DNA from: Chitinophaga pinensis DSM 2588
GTDB taxonomy: Bacteria > Bacteroidota > Bacteroidia > Chitinophagales > Chitinophagaceae
Assembly: GCF_000024005.1 (NCBI RefSeq)
Contig: NC_013132.1
Location: forward strand, 1,612,001 to 1,676,000
Length of the DNA: 64,000 nt
Direction: 5' to 3'
Both the position numbers and the translations under genes were made by a program. Below the pieces are notes generated by a model, which was given only the letters and a program-made list of their open reading frames with translations, did not search any database and was not told the DNA's origin. Below, one piece after another: positions 13,342 through 53,655 of this stretch (positions are counted from its first letter, which is position 1; every line of letters starts with the position of its first letter).

Positions 13342-14267
13342 TTAAAATTCCGGTTAGAGAGCTGAGCAAATATTTCGTCCAGTGAGCTTTTTTCGGGTGT
13401 TACTTCATTGAGCTGCCAGTCGTGTGCGACACTCATATGTACGATCTGCTGAGAGATAGTGGAGGAACCGCTGAAATGTATACGGATCCGCTGGTCGTGC
13501 AGTAGTTCCACCTTATTGACGCCTGGTATGATGGCCAGTTCTTCCATTGCAGGGGGATTGTCCATCGCAACGATCATGGAGTTAGGTAGAATGTAATTAT
13601 TAAATGCCTCCATAGTATCGGAAAATACGATCTGCCCGCCTTCTATCATGCGGATTTCATTACAGGTAGCCTGCACTTCAGACAGAATATGAGAGGAGAA
13701 AATGACTGCCCGTTCTTCTGCAATCTCTCTTATCAGATGACGTACTTCCTTGATCTGAATAGGATCAAGTCCGTTGGTAGGTTCATCGAGTACAACAAGT
13801 TTGGGCTTGTGAATGATGGCCTGAGCGATGCCTACCCGCTGCCGGTAACCACCGGAAAGATTACTCAGCAGACGTTTACCGAAAGCTGTGACGCCGCATT
13901 TATCTTTTACAGCTGCCACGGCCGATTTAACTGCTTTTGCAGGAATATCCCTGATATGTGCGCAATAGGTAAGGTATTCGTCCACTGTCAGGTCCAGATG
14001 TAGTGGTGCGTGTTGAGGGAGGAACCCCAGCAATCTTTTAGCCTTTTCCGGGTACTCCTGCAGATCGGTATCATCTATATAGACTTTCCCCGTTGTCTGG
14101 TTCAGTACGCCGCATAAGATGTTCATGGTGGTGGATTTTCCCGCACCATTTGAACCTAACAGTCCCAGTACGCCGGTATGACCGATAGAAATATTAATAT
14201 CCTGTATAGCCCATTGCCTGTTATATCTGTGATATAAATGAGCTGTTCTTACGATGTATTGTCCCAA
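13338..14267 (-). CDS. ABC transporter ATP-binding protein (GldA-like)
   Basis: A 309-residue ATPase: Walker A GLLGSNGAGKST, Q-loop LPQHAPLH, signature LSGGYRQR, Walker B LVVLDEPTNGLDP and the switch His in FSSHILSEV. It energises the downstream permease, with which it overlaps by 4 nt (ATGA type). The C-terminal ~80 residues resemble the extra domain of ABC-2 exporter ATPases. It starts 105 nt after the ECF sigma gene on the same strand. Confidence 0.93.
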   Translation of the reverse strand: MGQYIVRTAHLYHRYNRQWAIQDINISIGHTGVLGLLGSNGAGKSTTMNILCGVLNQTTGKVYIDDTDLQEYPEKAKRLLGFLPQHAPLHLDLTVDEYLTYCAHIRDIPAKAVKSAVAAVKDKCGVTAFGKRLLSNLSGGYRQRVGIAQAIIHKPKLVVLDEPTNGLDPIQIKEVRHLIREIAEERAVIFSSHILSEVQATCNEIRMIEGGQIVFSDTMEAFNNYILPNSMIVAMDNPPAMEELAIIPGVNKVELLHDQRIRIHFSGSSTISQQIVHMSVAHDWQLNEVTPEKSSLDEIFAQLSNRNFK

Positions 14268-16864: not shown

Positions 16865-17186
16865 TTTGCAACCATTTAGCTTTGGTCGTATTACCTCGAG
16901 CGCCGAAAGGGCTGGCGATAGTAATTCGGGCATGTATATCCTATCGTTGAAAGACGGTAGCGCATTCAATTTATCAATACATGCTTATTTTTAAGAACAT
17001 GGGCGACTCATTTAATTGAACTCCTGATACTGAACTTTTGACCTCAAACATTGGCATTCCGTCGCCCATCATCAGGGCAATCTCCATTTTGCCGAACTAA
17101 CCCAAGTTCGTTTTCCAGCCTGCTGATTAAAGCACTTATCTAATATTTATTGTTCCGGATCCTTTGTGGGTATGCTTTTAAAGGGA
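16865..17186. other. Intergenic stretch without a convincing gene
   Basis: Nothing firm here. A 37-codon minus-strand frame (16974-17087, MEIALMMGDGMPMFEVKSSV...) is open but has no recognisable family. The stretch lies just outside the left arm of the 34-bp inverted repeat. Confidence 0.35.
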
Positions 17187-17220
17187 TGCCCGCTTTAGCC
17201 GGTTATTTGCCCGCTTCCCG
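17187..17220 (+). repeat. Left arm of a perfect 34-bp inverted repeat, candidate operator
   Basis: 34 bases identical to the reverse complement of 21142-21175. Inside it the 9-mer TGCCCGCTT occurs twice (17188-17196 and 17209-17217), 21 bp apart start to start. Beyond the perfect core the similarity continues more weakly for about 50 bp towards the gene. The arm lies about 150 bp upstream of the GMC gene, and the same element in the same orientation lies upstream of the convergent flippase gene. Confidence 0.85.
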
Positions 17221-17370
17221 CTGATTTTTACATTAACCCCTGATGATTGCGGCTTCATTTGCAACATAAACCTGATAAATGAAGTCTTACCTGAAACACT
17301 TTACTACCTCCGCCGAAGATCTTTCTCGCCCATGTAATGCTGGCGCTGCACGCTTACCAAACACTGGTAT

Positions 17371-18906
17371 ATGAATAGCTACGATGTTATTATCATTGGC
17401 AGTGGTTTTGGAGGCTCGATGGCTGCTAAACCACTCGTTGATGCCGGGATGAAAGTGCTCATGCTGGAGCGCGGTGACTGGGTAAAGCGCAGTGTTGAAG
17501 AAAACTGGGGGCCAAAGGGTTCTATTGATCTTTCTCCTTTTTATGATAAATCTTCCCTGTTGCATGTGCCCGTTGGCGGTAATAAACCAACCATGGGCTT
17601 GTATTCCTGCGTAGGCGGACCATCGGCTTTTTATGGCGGTGTATCTTTTCGTTTTCGCGAGGCCGACTTTGAAAAGAATGAGCAAATCGAGGGTAAGGAT
17701 GCGCAAGGCTGGCCCATTACATATGACGACCTGGAAAGCTATTACACACAAGCCGAGGGCATATTAAACATATCGGGCGAAACGGATATTGATCCAACCG
17801 AACCACGCCGCAGTGCGCCATTGCCGCAACATGCACCTGCTTTGGCCAATATATCCCAAAAGGTGAAATCCAGCGCGCAAAAATTAGGGCTGCATCCTTT
17901 TCAGCTGCCTTTGGCGATTAATTACGAAGATACAAGCCGCCAAACCTGTCTTAGCTGCAAGACCTGCGATACTTTTGCCTGTGCCGTAAGCGCGAAGAAC
18001 GACCTGGCTACCATCCTGATCCCTCAGCTGACGGCAAACGGTATGGAGCTACAGCACAATATGGTAGTGACAAGATTAAACGTACTAAATCGTCGTATTG
18101 TAAGCATCGAGTGCGTATCGAAAACATCCAAACAGTCGTATACATTTAAGGCCGATAAATTTATACTGGCTGCCGGTGCATTAGGTACACCGCATATCCT
18201 GTTATCATCGGGTCTGCAACACTACAACCCCGGCGGCGATGTAGTGGGCCGCTACCTGATGCGGCATTTAAATGCTATCATATTTGGTATTTTCCCCGGC
18301 GTTGCCGATAAGGAAGGCCGTTTTCATAAACAGCTGGCTATACTGGATTATTATTTTGGTCACCCCCAAGCCCCCGGATTTAATAAACTGGGTAGTTTAC
18401 AGCAAATGCCAACCCCTCCCGCAAGTGTAGTTGAAAATGAATTAAAGGGCGTATTAGGGAAGGTACTTAGTCCGGCGGTAAAGTTATTAAGTGGCTTGCT
18501 GGCCATTGTTGAAGACCAACCGCAATACAATAATGCGCTAACGATTGATGCCGCTTTTTCCGATGAATTTGGTTTGCCCCGAGTTGTTATCAACCACAGC
18601 TATAGCGACAGGGATAACGCCGCAATGAAAATTTTAACCGAAGAGGGTAAAAAGATCATGAAAGGGGCGGGGGCGCTCACCCATTATATACATAATATTC
18701 GTACGTTTTCACACGCGGTGGGTACAGTACGTATGGGTTTGAACGAGAAGACATCAGCCCTTGACGAGCATTGCCATTTCAGGGGAATAGATAATTTATA
18801 TGTTACCGATGGTAGCGTAATGCCAACATCGGCAGCGTTAAACCCAAGCCTAACCATTGCCGCAAATGCACTACGGGTAGGCGAATTTATTACCAGATTA
18901 AATTGA
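17371..18906 (+). CDS. GMC family FAD-dependent oxidoreductase
   Basis: 511 residues. N-terminal FAD-binding Rossmann motif DVIIIGSGFGGSMAAKPLVD with the acidic end LMLERG. A cysteine cluster CLSCKTCDTFACAVSAK sits at about residues 193-209, as in sterol-oxidase-like GMC members. The C-terminal domain carries SHAVGTVRMG and the FAD/active-site block NLYVTDGSVMPTSAALNPSL. These enzymes oxidise alcohols, sugars or sterols. The cluster with a Gfo/Idh oxidoreductase 6 nt downstream suggests oxidation of a sugar or polyol. Codon use looks different from the neighbours, with more TTA and GCC, which hints at a separate origin; I have not measured it. Confidence 0.9.
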   Translation: MNSYDVIIIGSGFGGSMAAKPLVDAGMKVLMLERGDWVKRSVEENWGPKGSIDLSPFYDKSSLLHVPVGGNKPTMGLYSCVGGPSAFYGGVSFRFREADFEKNEQIEGKDAQGWPITYDDLESYYTQAEGILNISGETDIDPTEPRRSAPLPQHAPALANISQKVKSSAQKLGLHPFQLPLAINYEDTSRQTCLSCKTCDTFACAVSAKNDLATILIPQLTANGMELQHNMVVTRLNVLNRRIVSIECVSKTSKQSYTFKADKFILAAGALGTPHILLSSGLQHYNPGGDVVGRYLMRHLNAIIFGIFPGVADKEGRFHKQLAILDYYFGHPQAPGFNKLGSLQQMPTPPASVVENELKGVLGKVLSPAVKLLSGLLAIVEDQPQYNNALTIDAAFSDEFGLPRVVINHSYSDRDNAAMKILTEEGKKIMKGAGALTHYIHNIRTFSHAVGTVRMGLNEKTSALDEHCHFRGIDNLYVTDGSVMPTSAALNPSLTIAANALRVGEFITRLN

Positions 18907-18912
18907 CAGTTT

Positions 18913-19905
18913 ATGTCGACCTACAAAAGGGTAGAAGGCCAGGTACGCATAGCCTTTTTAGGCTGCGGAGCAATAGCCGGTAAACATGCGAAAAGGCTCA
19001 AGGGTTTTGCAGGTGTAGAGCTGTACTTTGCCAGCCGTGCCGAAAGCAAGGCCAGGAAATATGCTGATCAATACAAGGGCAAAGGTTTCTTTTCTTCATA
19101 TACCGCGGCCATCCAATCGCCGGATGTATCCGTAGTGTTTATCTGCACTCCACCGGATAGCCACCTGGCATTATCGATGGAAGCAATGACCGCAGGTAAA
19201 CATGTTATATGTGAAAAACCGTCGTTTTTCCATTCAACAGATTTTGATATCATTGATAAGCTTCGCCAGGAAAAAGGCGTTCAGCTGTTGGTGGCTGAAA
19301 ATTACTTTTATAAACCGGCGTTAAAAAAGCTGCGTGAAGTGTTGGCTATGAACCTGATAGGTGATATCAGGTTCTTATTTTTTAACGCCACCAAAAGTCA
19401 ACAAGTAAGCGATTGGCGTGCCGATGGGGGGATAGCAGGCGGCGCATTATTCGAAGGGGGGATCCACTGGATCAACTATATATCAAACCTGGGCTTAACC
19501 GTACAATCTGTAACGGGGTTTCTGGCGTCAAATACCGGCAAGCCTGAACGCAGTATGCAGGTGGTAGCGAAATATGCAGAGGGGCCTGTTGGCACATTGC
19601 TTTATTCCTGGGAAGTGAACGCCTTGTTCAGAGGCTTACGCAATTCCCGTATTTTCGGTAGTAAAGGATCTATAAAATTTGAATCGAACGGTTTATACAT
19701 ATTTGTCCGCGGTGAAAAATGGCGGCTGATATTCCCTGGTATCAGAGACATCGGCGGAACAAAAGGCATGCTGGCCGATTTTGTAAATGCCTTGCGTACT
19801 GGTGAAGATGCCGCCTTTAATCTGCAAATGGCCAGGCACGATATTGAGTTAATTGAGCAGGCTTACCAAACGAGCGGCATATTATTAACACACAATTGCA
19901 GATAA
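18913..19905 (+). CDS. Gfo/Idh/MocA family oxidoreductase
   Basis: 330 residues, cytoplasmic. The NAD(P)-binding start RIAFLGCGAIAGKHAKRLKG is followed by VVFICTPPDSH, the family EKP motif in GKHVICEKPSFF, and the C-terminal domain (GGALFEGGIHWINYISNLG). It starts 6 nt after the GMC gene and is clearly in the same transcript. Its stop is 8 nt from the stop of the convergent flippase-like gene. The substrate is not evident; it is clearly different from the Tat-exported relative at 3332-4669. Confidence 0.9.
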   Translation: MSTYKRVEGQVRIAFLGCGAIAGKHAKRLKGFAGVELYFASRAESKARKYADQYKGKGFFSSYTAAIQSPDVSVVFICTPPDSHLALSMEAMTAGKHVICEKPSFFHSTDFDIIDKLRQEKGVQLLVAENYFYKPALKKLREVLAMNLIGDIRFLFFNATKSQQVSDWRADGGIAGGALFEGGIHWINYISNLGLTVQSVTGFLASNTGKPERSMQVVAKYAEGPVGTLLYSWEVNALFRGLRNSRIFGSKGSIKFESNGLYIFVRGEKWRLIFPGIRDIGGTKGMLADFVNALRTGEDAAFNLQMARHDIELIEQAYQTSGILLTHNCR

Positions 19906-19913
19906 GTATTATT

Positions 19914-21038
19914 TTATCCATGATTGTCGTCTTGCACCGATATGGTATGGGTTTTAAGTAGATTTAATATTACAAATGCGCCTATCAGCGCCGGAAAAAA
20001 GAGCAGAAAAGATCGCTGTAATAATGTAAAGACCGGCAATATGGATGTAGGGACAATCCTTGAAAACAAGACAGCAATGCTGGCTTCGGCAAATCCACTC
20101 CCACCAGGGCTTGGTGCGAAATAGATCATAAACTGGATGAGGATCTGAATGCTTATCACCTGTAACATATCGGCATGAATGCCCAGGCCCAATAATATCA
20201 CATACTGCATACAATATTTATTCAGGTAAAGCAGCGTCGTCATCAGCAGACTCAGAGGAAACAGCAAGGGATGATGTTGTAATAATTTTTTACAAATTTG
20301 CTGGTAATGAAGAATGTTAGCATAAGACGTGTTAGCCCATTTCGTTATCCGCTCTTTCTTCGCAGGCCAGATCCGGCTACACAGCGCAGCGATTTTGATC
20401 AAAGCAGCTCCGATCCATAGCGGCTTCCAGAAAGCAAGCATGAAAACAACCCCAAAAGTGAAAAATACCGAGAAGCCATATTTGAGTAAAATCTTTATAA
20501 GGCCGCTTTCCAGTTGGTTATTCATTACCCATATAGCTAATAAGCCGGCCAATGGCATAAAGAGCAGCGTTGCACCCATGTTAATCAGGCTGACAATAAA
20601 TCCGTCCAGTACTTTTACGCCATGGCGGTTGTATACATATAACTGAGCTGGGCCTGCACCACTATGGAATGGCGTTATTGCTCCCATAAACATATTAGCA
20701 ACATTGGCCTTAAAACTTACCCAGTGTGACACGCCCGGTTTAAATTTTTGTATAAAAATATGGTTACGCCAGCTGCCCAGCATCAGGTCGATAAAAACCA
20801 TACCGAAGCATATCAGTATATATTTAAGTTTAATGCTGCTTAGCGCTATGATGGTATCACCAGTATGTGAATAAAAAAACACGACAGCGACTGATGCGAT
20901 GGTTAACAAACCAAGCCACATAGCCCCTTTAAGGATCATTCTTTTATTAAAAAGTTGTTTATCGGGATTTTCATTTGCTGTTGGTGCTTGAATTGATACT
21001 GTCTTTTCTGCTGTCTCCACTTTTTCTTCTAACAACAT
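19914..21038 (-). CDS. Flippase-like integral membrane protein (LPG synthase TM family)
   Basis: 374 residues with about eight hydrophobic helices (for example LGLLTIASVAVVFFYSH, YILICFGMVFIDLMLGSW, FMGAITPFHSGAGPAQLYVY). FMGAITPFHSGAGPAQ and FAPSPGGSGFAEA are hallmark loops of the lysylphosphatidylglycerol synthase transmembrane family (UPF0104/YbhN), thought to move lipids or lipid-linked compounds. No synthase domain is attached. It converges with the GMC/Gfo pair and carries the same 34-bp element upstream, so the three genes probably respond to one signal. Confidence 0.85.
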   Translation of the reverse strand: MLLEEKVETAEKTVSIQAPTANENPDKQLFNKRMILKGAMWLGLLTIASVAVVFFYSHTGDTIIALSSIKLKYILICFGMVFIDLMLGSWRNHIFIQKFKPGVSHWVSFKANVANMFMGAITPFHSGAGPAQLYVYNRHGVKVLDGFIVSLINMGATLLFMPLAGLLAIWVMNNQLESGLIKILLKYGFSVFFTFGVVFMLAFWKPLWIGAALIKIAALCSRIWPAKKERITKWANTSYANILHYQQICKKLLQHHPLLFPLSLLMTTLLYLNKYCMQYVILLGLGIHADMLQVISIQILIQFMIYFAPSPGGSGFAEASIAVLFSRIVPTSILPVFTLLQRSFLLFFPALIGAFVILNLLKTHTISVQDDNHG

Positions 21039-21141
21039 ATGTATACTGGTTTATTCAGCTATTTTAGGATGGCTGGAAAAATAATTGCTATTTGTGATGC
21101 AAATAAAGCTGCAGTGATCAAGGTTTGATGATGAAAATAGG

Positions 21142-21175
21142 GGGAAGCGGGCAAATAACCGGCTAAAGCGGGCAT
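21142..21175 (-). repeat. Right arm of the perfect 34-bp inverted repeat, candidate operator
   Basis: Exact reverse complement of 17187-17220, about 104 bp upstream of the flippase-like gene and read in the same direction relative to it. It has the same twin TGCCCGCTT half-sites 21 bp apart. Confidence 0.85.
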
Positions 21176-21238
21176 AATAAATCAATGATCAGAAAGATAT
21201 ATTTTTTGGGATAACTTCACCAGGCCAGGAATAGAAAA

Positions 21239-21844
21239 ATGAAAAAGAAGCCAGATATCAATCGTAGATATCCACTTATACCTAAAGTGATACTGACGCC
21301 AGTAAGCGGCTGGACGACTTTTTTCATGAATGTTCTTTATTCGATCATTGTTCTCTTATGTATCTGGGGTATTGTAAAAGTAATTGGGTGGCAAGACGAT
21401 CGCAGGACTGAAAGGATTGCGGCAAGTAATACTAAAACGATCGGCACTATTGTCAAGGTGGGATCTATGAAAGGGAGTTATGCTTACTTTACATATGTTG
21501 TCGATGGTAAGACATATAAGGAAAGGACTGGCACTCCTTCCAGTTATATGTACCTGGGAGAGCATTATGAGGTCATTTACAGTAAAGACGACCCGTCAGA
21601 ATGTGTGATAATGTTTGCCGCACCTGTCTTTCTGAAAGGAGAATTGACAAGAGAAACCGATGCTACCATCATCCATGTGGAATCAGACCTTATCGGATTC
21701 AAATACAATCTCCGTACCGGTGATGGTGAGATAAAACGTTTCCAGCGATTGCCTAAAGGAAAGAAATTGAATGTGAAGAAAGGTGATAGTTATGGGATAG
21801 AATACCGGGAAGCCGATCCGAGGATAGCTTATCTCAAATTCTGA
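21239..21844 (+). CDS. Membrane-anchored protein of unknown function
   Basis: 201 residues with one transmembrane helix (about 24-46, FFMNVLYSIIVLLCIWGIVKV), a charged juxtamembrane segment, and a strand-rich soluble part resembling DUF3592-type domains (TIGTIVKVGSMKGSYAYFTY, VDGKTYKERTG, LGEHYEVIYSKDDPSECVI). A second small domain ends the protein. Its function is not known. It stands outside the inverted repeat and precedes the tRNA on the opposite strand. Confidence 0.7.
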   Translation: MKKKPDINRRYPLIPKVILTPVSGWTTFFMNVLYSIIVLLCIWGIVKVIGWQDDRRTERIAASNTKTIGTIVKVGSMKGSYAYFTYVVDGKTYKERTGTPSSYMYLGEHYEVIYSKDDPSECVIMFAAPVFLKGELTRETDATIIHVESDLIGFKYNLRTGDGEIKRFQRLPKGKKLNVKKGDSYGIEYREADPRIAYLKF

Positions 21845-21908
21845 GGTGTGAACCACACGCATAAATGAAGTCTTCCTCGACATCGCCCGATCACCACACG
21901 AATTACCA

Positions 21909-21949
21909 CAAAAGAAAAACGGCAACAATACTTTAGTATTGTTGCCGTT
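21909..21949 (-). terminator. Terminator of tRNA-Glu copy 1
   Basis: On the minus strand a perfect 13-bp stem (21936-21948 with 21919-21931, 4-nt loop) is followed by TTTTTCTTTT, directly after the tRNA 3' end. Confidence 0.85.
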
Positions 21950-21956
21950 ATCTTCG

Positions 21957-22028
21957 TACCGCGTACGGGAGTCGAACCCGTCATTCCTCCGTGAAAGGGA
22001 GGCGTCTTAGCCGATTGACCAACGCGGC
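21957..22028 (-). tRNA. tRNA-Glu (anticodon TTC)
   Basis: A 72-nt cloverleaf on the minus strand. Acceptor stem GCCGCGT/ACGCGGT with a G-U first pair, anticodon arm CCTCC-CTTTCAC-GGAGG with TTC at plus positions 21993-21995, and T-arm GGGTTCGACTCCC. No CCA is encoded. An identical copy is at 53584-53655. Confidence 0.95.
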
Positions 22029-22571: not shown

Positions 22572-22617
22572 TGTCTTTACAATTGTTGAAAAGGCACGGT
22601 AATCCATATGTTTCCCG

Positions 22618-22650
22618 TAGATAACCCATAGATAAGCCATAGATAACCCG
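22618..22650 (+). repeat. Three tandem 11-bp repeats
   Basis: TAGATAACCCA, TAGATAAGCCA and TAGATAACCCG lie head to tail, followed by the partly inverted TATCTATA. They lie about 150 bp upstream of the membrane protein gene at 22799. One unit per helical turn suggests a protein-binding array, but this is inference. Confidence 0.7.
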
Positions 22651-22798
22651 TATCTATAAGAATGGATTATATACGACTTATCTATGAATTACCTTCCTGA
22701 TTCATTGCCGTTTTCACCGATCTCCTGACTTCTCTCACGGCAACAATTGAGAAAGTTGTGTAATTTGGCCCCTCCGCAACTACAACAAACAACTAATT

Positions 22799-53574: not shown

Positions 53575-53583
53575 CCGTGTTGG

Positions 53584-53655
53584 TACCGCGTACGGGAGTC
53601 GAACCCGTCATTCCTCCGTGAAAGGGAGGCGTCTTAGCCGATTGACCAACGCGGC
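53584..53655 (-). tRNA. tRNA-Glu (anticodon TTC), second copy
   Basis: The 72 nt are identical to the copy at 21957-22028, with the same acceptor, anticodon arm and T-arm. About 70 bp beyond its 3' end also align with the other copy (about 80% by eye). Confidence 0.95.

Follow-up and report, generated by a model that had tools for sequence, protein, structure and literature searches.

Predicted LytTR-type operators of a convergent oxidoreductase/flippase-like gene block in Chitinophaga pinensis

A 64,000-nucleotide stretch of the Chitinophaga pinensis DSM 2588 genome (contig NC_013132.1; this whole 64-kb stretch is called the window, and positions refer to it) harbors a block of three genes bracketed by a perfect 34-bp inverted repeat. 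The genes for a GMC and a Gfo/Idh/MocA oxidoreductase (GMC-Gfo) converge with a gene for a flippase-like membrane protein. Judging from sequence comparison, we consider it highly probable that the arms of this repeat are tandem LytTR operators of one small regulon, bound by the regulator of a distant histidine kinase (HK)/LytTR pair, and that the cargo block moves together with its promoters. The HK and the LytTR response regulator would be made at a distant locus (~8.3718-8.3735 Mb). The regulator would bind two 9-bp direct repeats 21 bp apart and, once bound, would activate a weak Bacteroidota promoter with a -7 box starting 35 bp downstream. Its targets in C. pinensis would be GMC-Gfo, the flippase-like gene and a gene for a GDPD-like phosphodiesterase beside the regulator, and the block would travel between genomes together with its operators. 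Binding, activation and the promoter, as well as any signal and pathway served, are what we infer from the observations described below.

The repeat arms and a third site next to a LytTR regulator

The two arms are exact reverse complements of each other over 34/34 bp. The right arm is located where the original prediction had placed it, but the left arm covers 17186-17219 instead of 17187-17220. From base composition, ~8e-12 inverted repeats of at least 34 bp are expected in the window, and no other exact inverted repeat of at least 16 bp between separate arms was found within its 64 kb. The predicted placement of the arms 100-150 bp upstream of convergent genes also proved right: the distance from arm end to start codon is 151 bp for GMC and 103 bp for the flippase-like gene, in the same orientation relative to each gene. 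As had been claimed, TGCCCGCTT occurs twice in each arm with a period of 21 bp. The weaker similarity reported beyond the core is real as well, since the likeness of the arms extends towards the genes over 85 bp (82% ungapped, 85% by BLAST). By these alignments, both arms are copies of one putative promoter-operator module, and the 34-bp repeat is the core of this 85-bp promoter-like module. The inverted arrangement of the repeat results solely from the convergence of the two transcription units.

Together with related sites described below, 11 sites could be compared. Internal periodicity is most pronounced at 21 bp, with a mean match of 0.57 compared to 0.42 for the next best lag. All 11 have direct repeats that agree in 6-9 of 9 bases, and inverted symmetry is limited to 3-4 of 8 bases in each of them; a palindromic operator (AGCCGG..CCCGCT) was rejected for this reason. 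A TTnnTTTG box is found at the same ungapped alignment position in all 11 sites, 35 bp past the repeats. The -7 consensus of the Bacteroidota is TAnnTTTG. No clear -33 box is present at the expected columns (45-48) of the site alignment, as would be the case for an activated promoter, the promoter itself being predicted. The -7-like box precedes the ATG by 19 bp in the C. pinensis GDPD and the Pedobacter GMC genes, by 40 bp in the Pedobacter flippase gene and by 58-110 bp in the block genes of Chitinophaga.

PMC6193735 describes LytTR repeats of 9 bp with a 12-bp spacer, such as ACCACTTAT-12-ACCGCTTAT and CCCGCTTGG-12-ACCGCTTAG, most entries in its table being predictions by its authors. In the same register, the half-sites of the window read CCCGCTTTA-12-CCCGCTTCC. 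PMC2766830 gives the same 9-bp/12-bp rule, with SilA itself having 10-bp repeats and an 11-bp spacer. Like the operators of the LytTR family covered there (streptococcal HdrR, BrsR and others; PMC6193735, PMC2766830), the sites show 9-bp direct repeats, a 12-bp spacer and xCCGCTTxx half-sites, lie just upstream of a putative core promoter and are linked to a LytTR regulator gene. Unlike the streptococcal examples, the operators predicted here have variable half-sites (C[CT]G[CGT][CT]T), a Bacteroidota-type -7 box and oxidoreductase/flippase-like cargo. A similar placement is found in the LRS-like operons of Bacteroides thetaiotaomicron and Bacteroides ovatus (LRS: LytTR regulator with membrane inhibitor): in B. 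thetaiotaomicron, the repeat is followed after 11+4+19 = 34 bp by the -7 box TATCTTTG (PMC6193735, Table 3; our sum), compared to 35 bp here. But these Bacteroides regulators contain transmembrane segments, and both repeats and spacers measure 11 bp there, whereas here a two-component response regulator and its histidine kinase are separate proteins. An LRS was therefore rejected, the partner being a histidine kinase instead. Features of a LytS/LytTR two-component system are present, namely tandem repeats, spacing, placement, a LytTR domain and a PF06580 kinase.

A BLAST search of the arms against the 9.13-Mb genome of C. pinensis itself identified a third copy at G000:C1:8371258-8371352 (95 bp, 72%, E 5e-7). 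The other 10 of the 13 matches were only 15-20 bp long, with E 0.96 or worse. This third copy is 6.7 Mb away from the block by coordinates, or 2.4 Mb in the opposite direction if the contig is circular. It is located directly before the GDPD-like gene and 410 bp past the end of the LytTR response regulator gene, which follows the histidine kinase gene at the distant locus given above (G000:C1). The regulator contains PF04397 (LytTR, 60 bits) and Response_reg, and the kinase PF06580 (76.2 bits). The whole HK-LytTR-GDPD module (L060 7416-10525) is flanked by a tRNA-Ser region on one side and, on the other, by a gene judged by eye to be epoxide-hydrolase-like.

The idea of a shared LytTR-type operator that defines one regulon and is carried as a unit, put forward in the original prediction, gains support from the HK/LytTR pair beside the third copy and inside a Pedobacter block, from the co-occurrence of sites and regulator and from the position of the block elsewhere in strain YR627. 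The three-gene regulon proposed at that time can be maintained for GMC, Gfo and flippase, but the predicted regulon is larger, including the GDPD-like gene elsewhere; the suggested sugar/polyol oxidation and lipid-linked transport hold at the family level only.

Sites and regulator in related genomes

Scanning genome contigs with the GMC protein gave seven loci. In Chitinophaga YR627 (G115) and YS-16 (G107), the block is present with both arms. In Pedobacter MC2016-15 (G511, L056), sites precede the GMC gene (29/34) and the flippase gene (24/34), both on the plus strand and thus in direct orientation, and orthologues of the LytTR regulator (70%) and the kinase (66%) are encoded between Gfo and flippase. 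Arm orientation follows the gene, being direct in Pedobacter and inverted in the Chitinophaga blocks.

A sequence-only profile was built from nine sites and run on 79 Chitinophaga and 145 Pedobacter genomes. The profile and orthologue searches score only the best candidates per genome, with stricter filters for the profile run, and weak sites may be missed. The Chitinophaga genomes contained nine sites of at least 61 bits, three each in C. pinensis (G000) and YR627, two in YS-16 and one in G048, with the next best at 19.4 bits. Two of these nine were new to the profile and lie before the GDPD genes of YR627 (61.7 bits) and G048 (64.2 bits). Among the Pedobacter genomes, strong sites were restricted to MC2016-15; its two sites, which were part of the profile, scored 73.0 and 66.3 bits, and the next best match reached 22.2. 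The LytTR orthologue was found in C. pinensis, YR627 and G048 of the 79 (E <= 1e-90) and in MC2016-15 of the 145 (E <= 1e-75). Strong sites therefore occur in 5/224 genomes, in 4/4 with the regulator and 1/220 without it, and HK/LytTR is linked to a site in all four. For Chitinophaga, all three regulator genomes are among the four site genomes of 79 (chance 5e-5 assuming independent genomes, which they are not). G048 carries HK, LytTR (89%) and GDPD genes and no block gene within the 18 kb examined; its genome gave no flippase match and only partial GMC matches of 26-30%.

Several observations weigh against the proposed regulon. The association between sites and regulator is phylogenetically non-independent. 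Both arms are preserved in YS-16, but its best listed LytTR protein shows 40% identity, and none qualified as an orthologue. Moreover, the sequences that border the HK-LytTR-GDPD module in C. pinensis lie side by side there on one contig (G107:C89:7622-7678), with the module missing, which indicates that the regulator itself is a variable segment. The YS-16 arms are either orphans or served by another regulator. No site was detected, at 22/34 or more or by weight matrix, in the loci of Mucilaginibacter pineti, Ferruginibacter, Calditrichia and Saprospiraceae, with GMC identities to the window of 91%, 75%, 66% and 57%, respectively. The G318 locus (19 kb; GMC identity 78%) also lacks a site despite GMC/Gfo orthologues. 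These absences cover loci of 17-19 kb, and regulator orthologues were not found in the four of these five genomes that were searched. Mucilaginibacter encodes a GDPD-like protein (45%), GMC and Gfo in succession and a flippase-like protein (61%) 5 kb off, so that the same gene set is linked there without the site. No other shared upstream motif beat shuffled sequences in the Mucilaginibacter (three pairs), Ferruginibacter or Saprospiraceae loci, or between G318 and Mucilaginibacter: the observed score was equalled or exceeded in 18-150 of 200 mononucleotide shuffles, compared to 0/200 in two positive controls. Part of what the original prediction had counted against itself, related strains carrying the genes without the repeat, is thus seen in Mucilaginibacter, Ferruginibacter and three relatives at a greater distance. 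In addition, the bare double half-site is an unspecific pattern: allowing up to 3 mismatches, it hit 11 places (with all 3 mismatches in 9 of these), its reversal hit 7, and it misses the third copy. One narrow pattern gave no half-site-like match in the 320 bp upstream of the C. pinensis kinase gene, and in Pedobacter only a single half-site faces the kinase gene. This lone half-site, CCCGCTTCA (L056 ~13390-13405, minus strand), starts 55 bp before the ATG with its left half absent; autoregulation of the kinase gene is possible.

Mobility of the block and alternative explanations

Gene blocks between inverted repeats occur as insertion elements and invertible segments, with which the block shares inverted arms a few kilobases apart. 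The arms could accordingly be terminal inverted repeats of a non-autonomous mobile element carrying the three genes, an alternative already raised in the original prediction. Indeed, a perfect inverted repeat brackets exactly these genes, and homology between the window and YS-16 stops near the arms (17176-21174). The block is also missing at the window's site in YR627, where the window flanks (to 16860, from 21952) are ~550 bp apart, representing an empty site; it is present 26 kb beyond it, at a distance of 1.7 kb from another tRNA-Glu gene, whose counterpart in the window (53581-53655) has no block beside it. However, the homology shared with the YR627 block (17068-21192) exceeds the arms by 118 bp on the left and 17 bp on the right, and no target-site duplication was seen by eye outside the arms. 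Furthermore, solitary copies precede GDPD genes in three genomes, the Pedobacter sites are in direct orientation, and the alignment continues towards each gene with a -7-like box. Unlike in insertion elements and invertible segments, arm orientation here follows the gene and the block ends are not the arms. Terminal inverted repeats are therefore unsupported, and we regard them as very unlikely.

The operator could also be shared within the same regulon but recognized by a different regulator, in which case the LytTR pair would lie close by through coincidence. The well-kept arms of YS-16, where no LytTR orthologue was found, would fit this explanation, and LytTR-like regulators other than the orthologue are encoded in C. 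pinensis (10 matches at E <= 1e-30 when the orthologue is counted). But HK/LytTR-site linkage is observed in four genomes from two orders (Chitinophagales, Sphingobacteriales) and in two gene arrangements, no regulator orthologue occurs without sites in the 224 genomes, and the site geometry is LytTR-like. This makes a different regulator improbable. Still less credible, to the point of being barely conceivable, is that one promoter was recently duplicated and the copies no longer serve in regulation: the arms are 34/34 identical in the window, but they are kept in YR627 and YS-16, with related sites in Pedobacter. Downstream of the core, 46 and 43 of 51 positions agree between orthologues of the window and YR627, compared to 36 and 40 of 51 within these genomes, so the arm copies look older than this split. 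In YS-16 the downstream likeness is mixed (39 of 51 within the genome, 37-41 between orthologues).

The cores behave differently from these flanks. The arms of a pair are identical at 34/34 positions in the window and in YS-16 and at 33/34 in YR627, compared to 31-33/34 between genomes. Five of the six arms match their own partner better than either orthologue; the YR627 flippase arm ties with that of the window at 33. Among variable columns, 3/4 are shared within genomes in the core and 0/23 downstream (chance 0.0014; six arms, three genomes). A rather doubtful explanation is that the block is a portable, self-maintaining regulatory cassette, in which gene conversion between the inverted arms would keep the operators identical and both units under the same LytTR regulator wherever the block lands, the arms being matched even in the regulator-less YS-16. 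Within-genome likeness may instead result from joint adaptation to the regulator. At the three core columns shared within genomes, arms and GDPD site have the same base in 2/3 (window genome) and 1/3 (YR627), which lowers the odds of gene conversion.

As for the distribution of the block, the flippase protein is encoded whole or nearly so in 4/79 Chitinophaga genomes (G000; G115, 90%; G107, 88%; G047, 64%). A fifth genome contains a decayed copy, visible as flippase-like gene fragments with internal stops (L064, G024:C20). GMC was searched in 60 of the 79 genomes (a set without G107 or G115); apart from the window's own copy, no close match turned up. The 91% identity of GMC to Mucilaginibacter, a member of another order, suggests horizontal transfer. 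In the window and YS-16 the block is close to one tRNA-Glu gene (21956-22028), in YR627 to the other (loci L143, L061, L062), and the 3' sides of tRNA-Glu genes look like hotspots. A hairpin beside the tRNA-Glu gene starts 61 bp outside the right arm in YR627, 40 bp in YS-16 and 743 bp in the window, and seems to belong to the right end of the block. Between right arm and hairpin, the window has a gene for a DUF3592 protein (21239-21844), for which neither the YS-16 nor the YR627 loci gave a match. Past the hairpin of YS-16 comes a short sequence resembling the tRNA 3' end (GTACCGCG), and the tRNA itself stands some 360 bp further along.

Genes of the block and significance of the predicted regulon

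The features of the block are compiled in Table 1.

Table 1. Coordinates of the gene block, its predicted promoter-operator modules and the adjacent hairpin in the window
Feature	Position	Strand	Basis or remark
Left arm	17186..17219	+	Two TGCCCGCTT half-sites in tandem with 12 bp between them; putative LytTR operator of GMC-Gfo
Remainder of left 85-bp promoter module	17220..17270	+	Ungapped alignments of 9 and 10 sites
Left -7-like box, Bacteroidota type	17254-17261	+	TTCATTTG
GMC oxidoreductase gene	17371..18906	+	Pfam
Gfo/Idh/MocA oxidoreductase gene	18913..19905	+	Pfam; 6 bp past GMC
LPG_synthase_TM / TIGR00374 flippase-like membrane protein gene	19914..21038	-	Pfam; convergent to GMC-Gfo
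Remainder of right promoter module	21091..21141	-	Ungapped site alignment
Right -7-like box	21100-21107	-	TTTATTTG
Right arm	21142..21175	-	Proposed same operator as left, facing flippase gene
Hairpin beside tRNA-Glu	21904..21953	.	Similar hairpins in YR627, YS-16

GMC and Gfo probably form one transcription unit. The nearest sequences in the PDB are glucose and fructose dehydrogenases for the GMC protein and mixed oxidoreductases for the Gfo protein, and the GDPD-like protein falls under the Pfam cut-off (25 vs 27 bits) and has no NCBIfam match. With mixed matches and a sub-threshold GDPD assignment, no chemical pathway or substrate is claimed, and the predicted enzyme functions of the block are assignable at the family level only. 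In the Pedobacter block, a fatty acid desaturase gene follows Gfo (L056 10534-11622), which hints at a lipid-related role. Relatives of GMC are common (2276 proteins at E <= 1e-100). Plasmid carriage of this gene was rejected: 12 plasmid records matched at E <= 1e-60, all with less than 60% identity and with 33-35% among the five listed. Base composition likewise gave no sign of foreign origin (GC 0.447 for the block, 0.440 for the window). An RNA element was dismissed as well, since Rfam at E <= 1 gave a tRNA and a sub-threshold mir-5897 match (22613-22702, 28.1 vs 90 bits, judged to be chance), neither of them on the arms. Imperfect inverted repeats with CCATAGATAA-like units are located at 22608-22705 between a response regulator gene and a membrane protein gene.

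A literature search for Chitinophaga and LytTR found no publication, and at the level of titles and abstract openings no description of this regulon was found. LytTR-like regulators are numerous in C. pinensis, and here a putative regulator, its operator and its target set are legible together. The predicted regulon is directly testable, with a candidate half-site at hand. With cargo genes that appear to move together with their operators while the regulator is encoded elsewhere, it would provide a simple case for how accessory genes join and leave a regulon.

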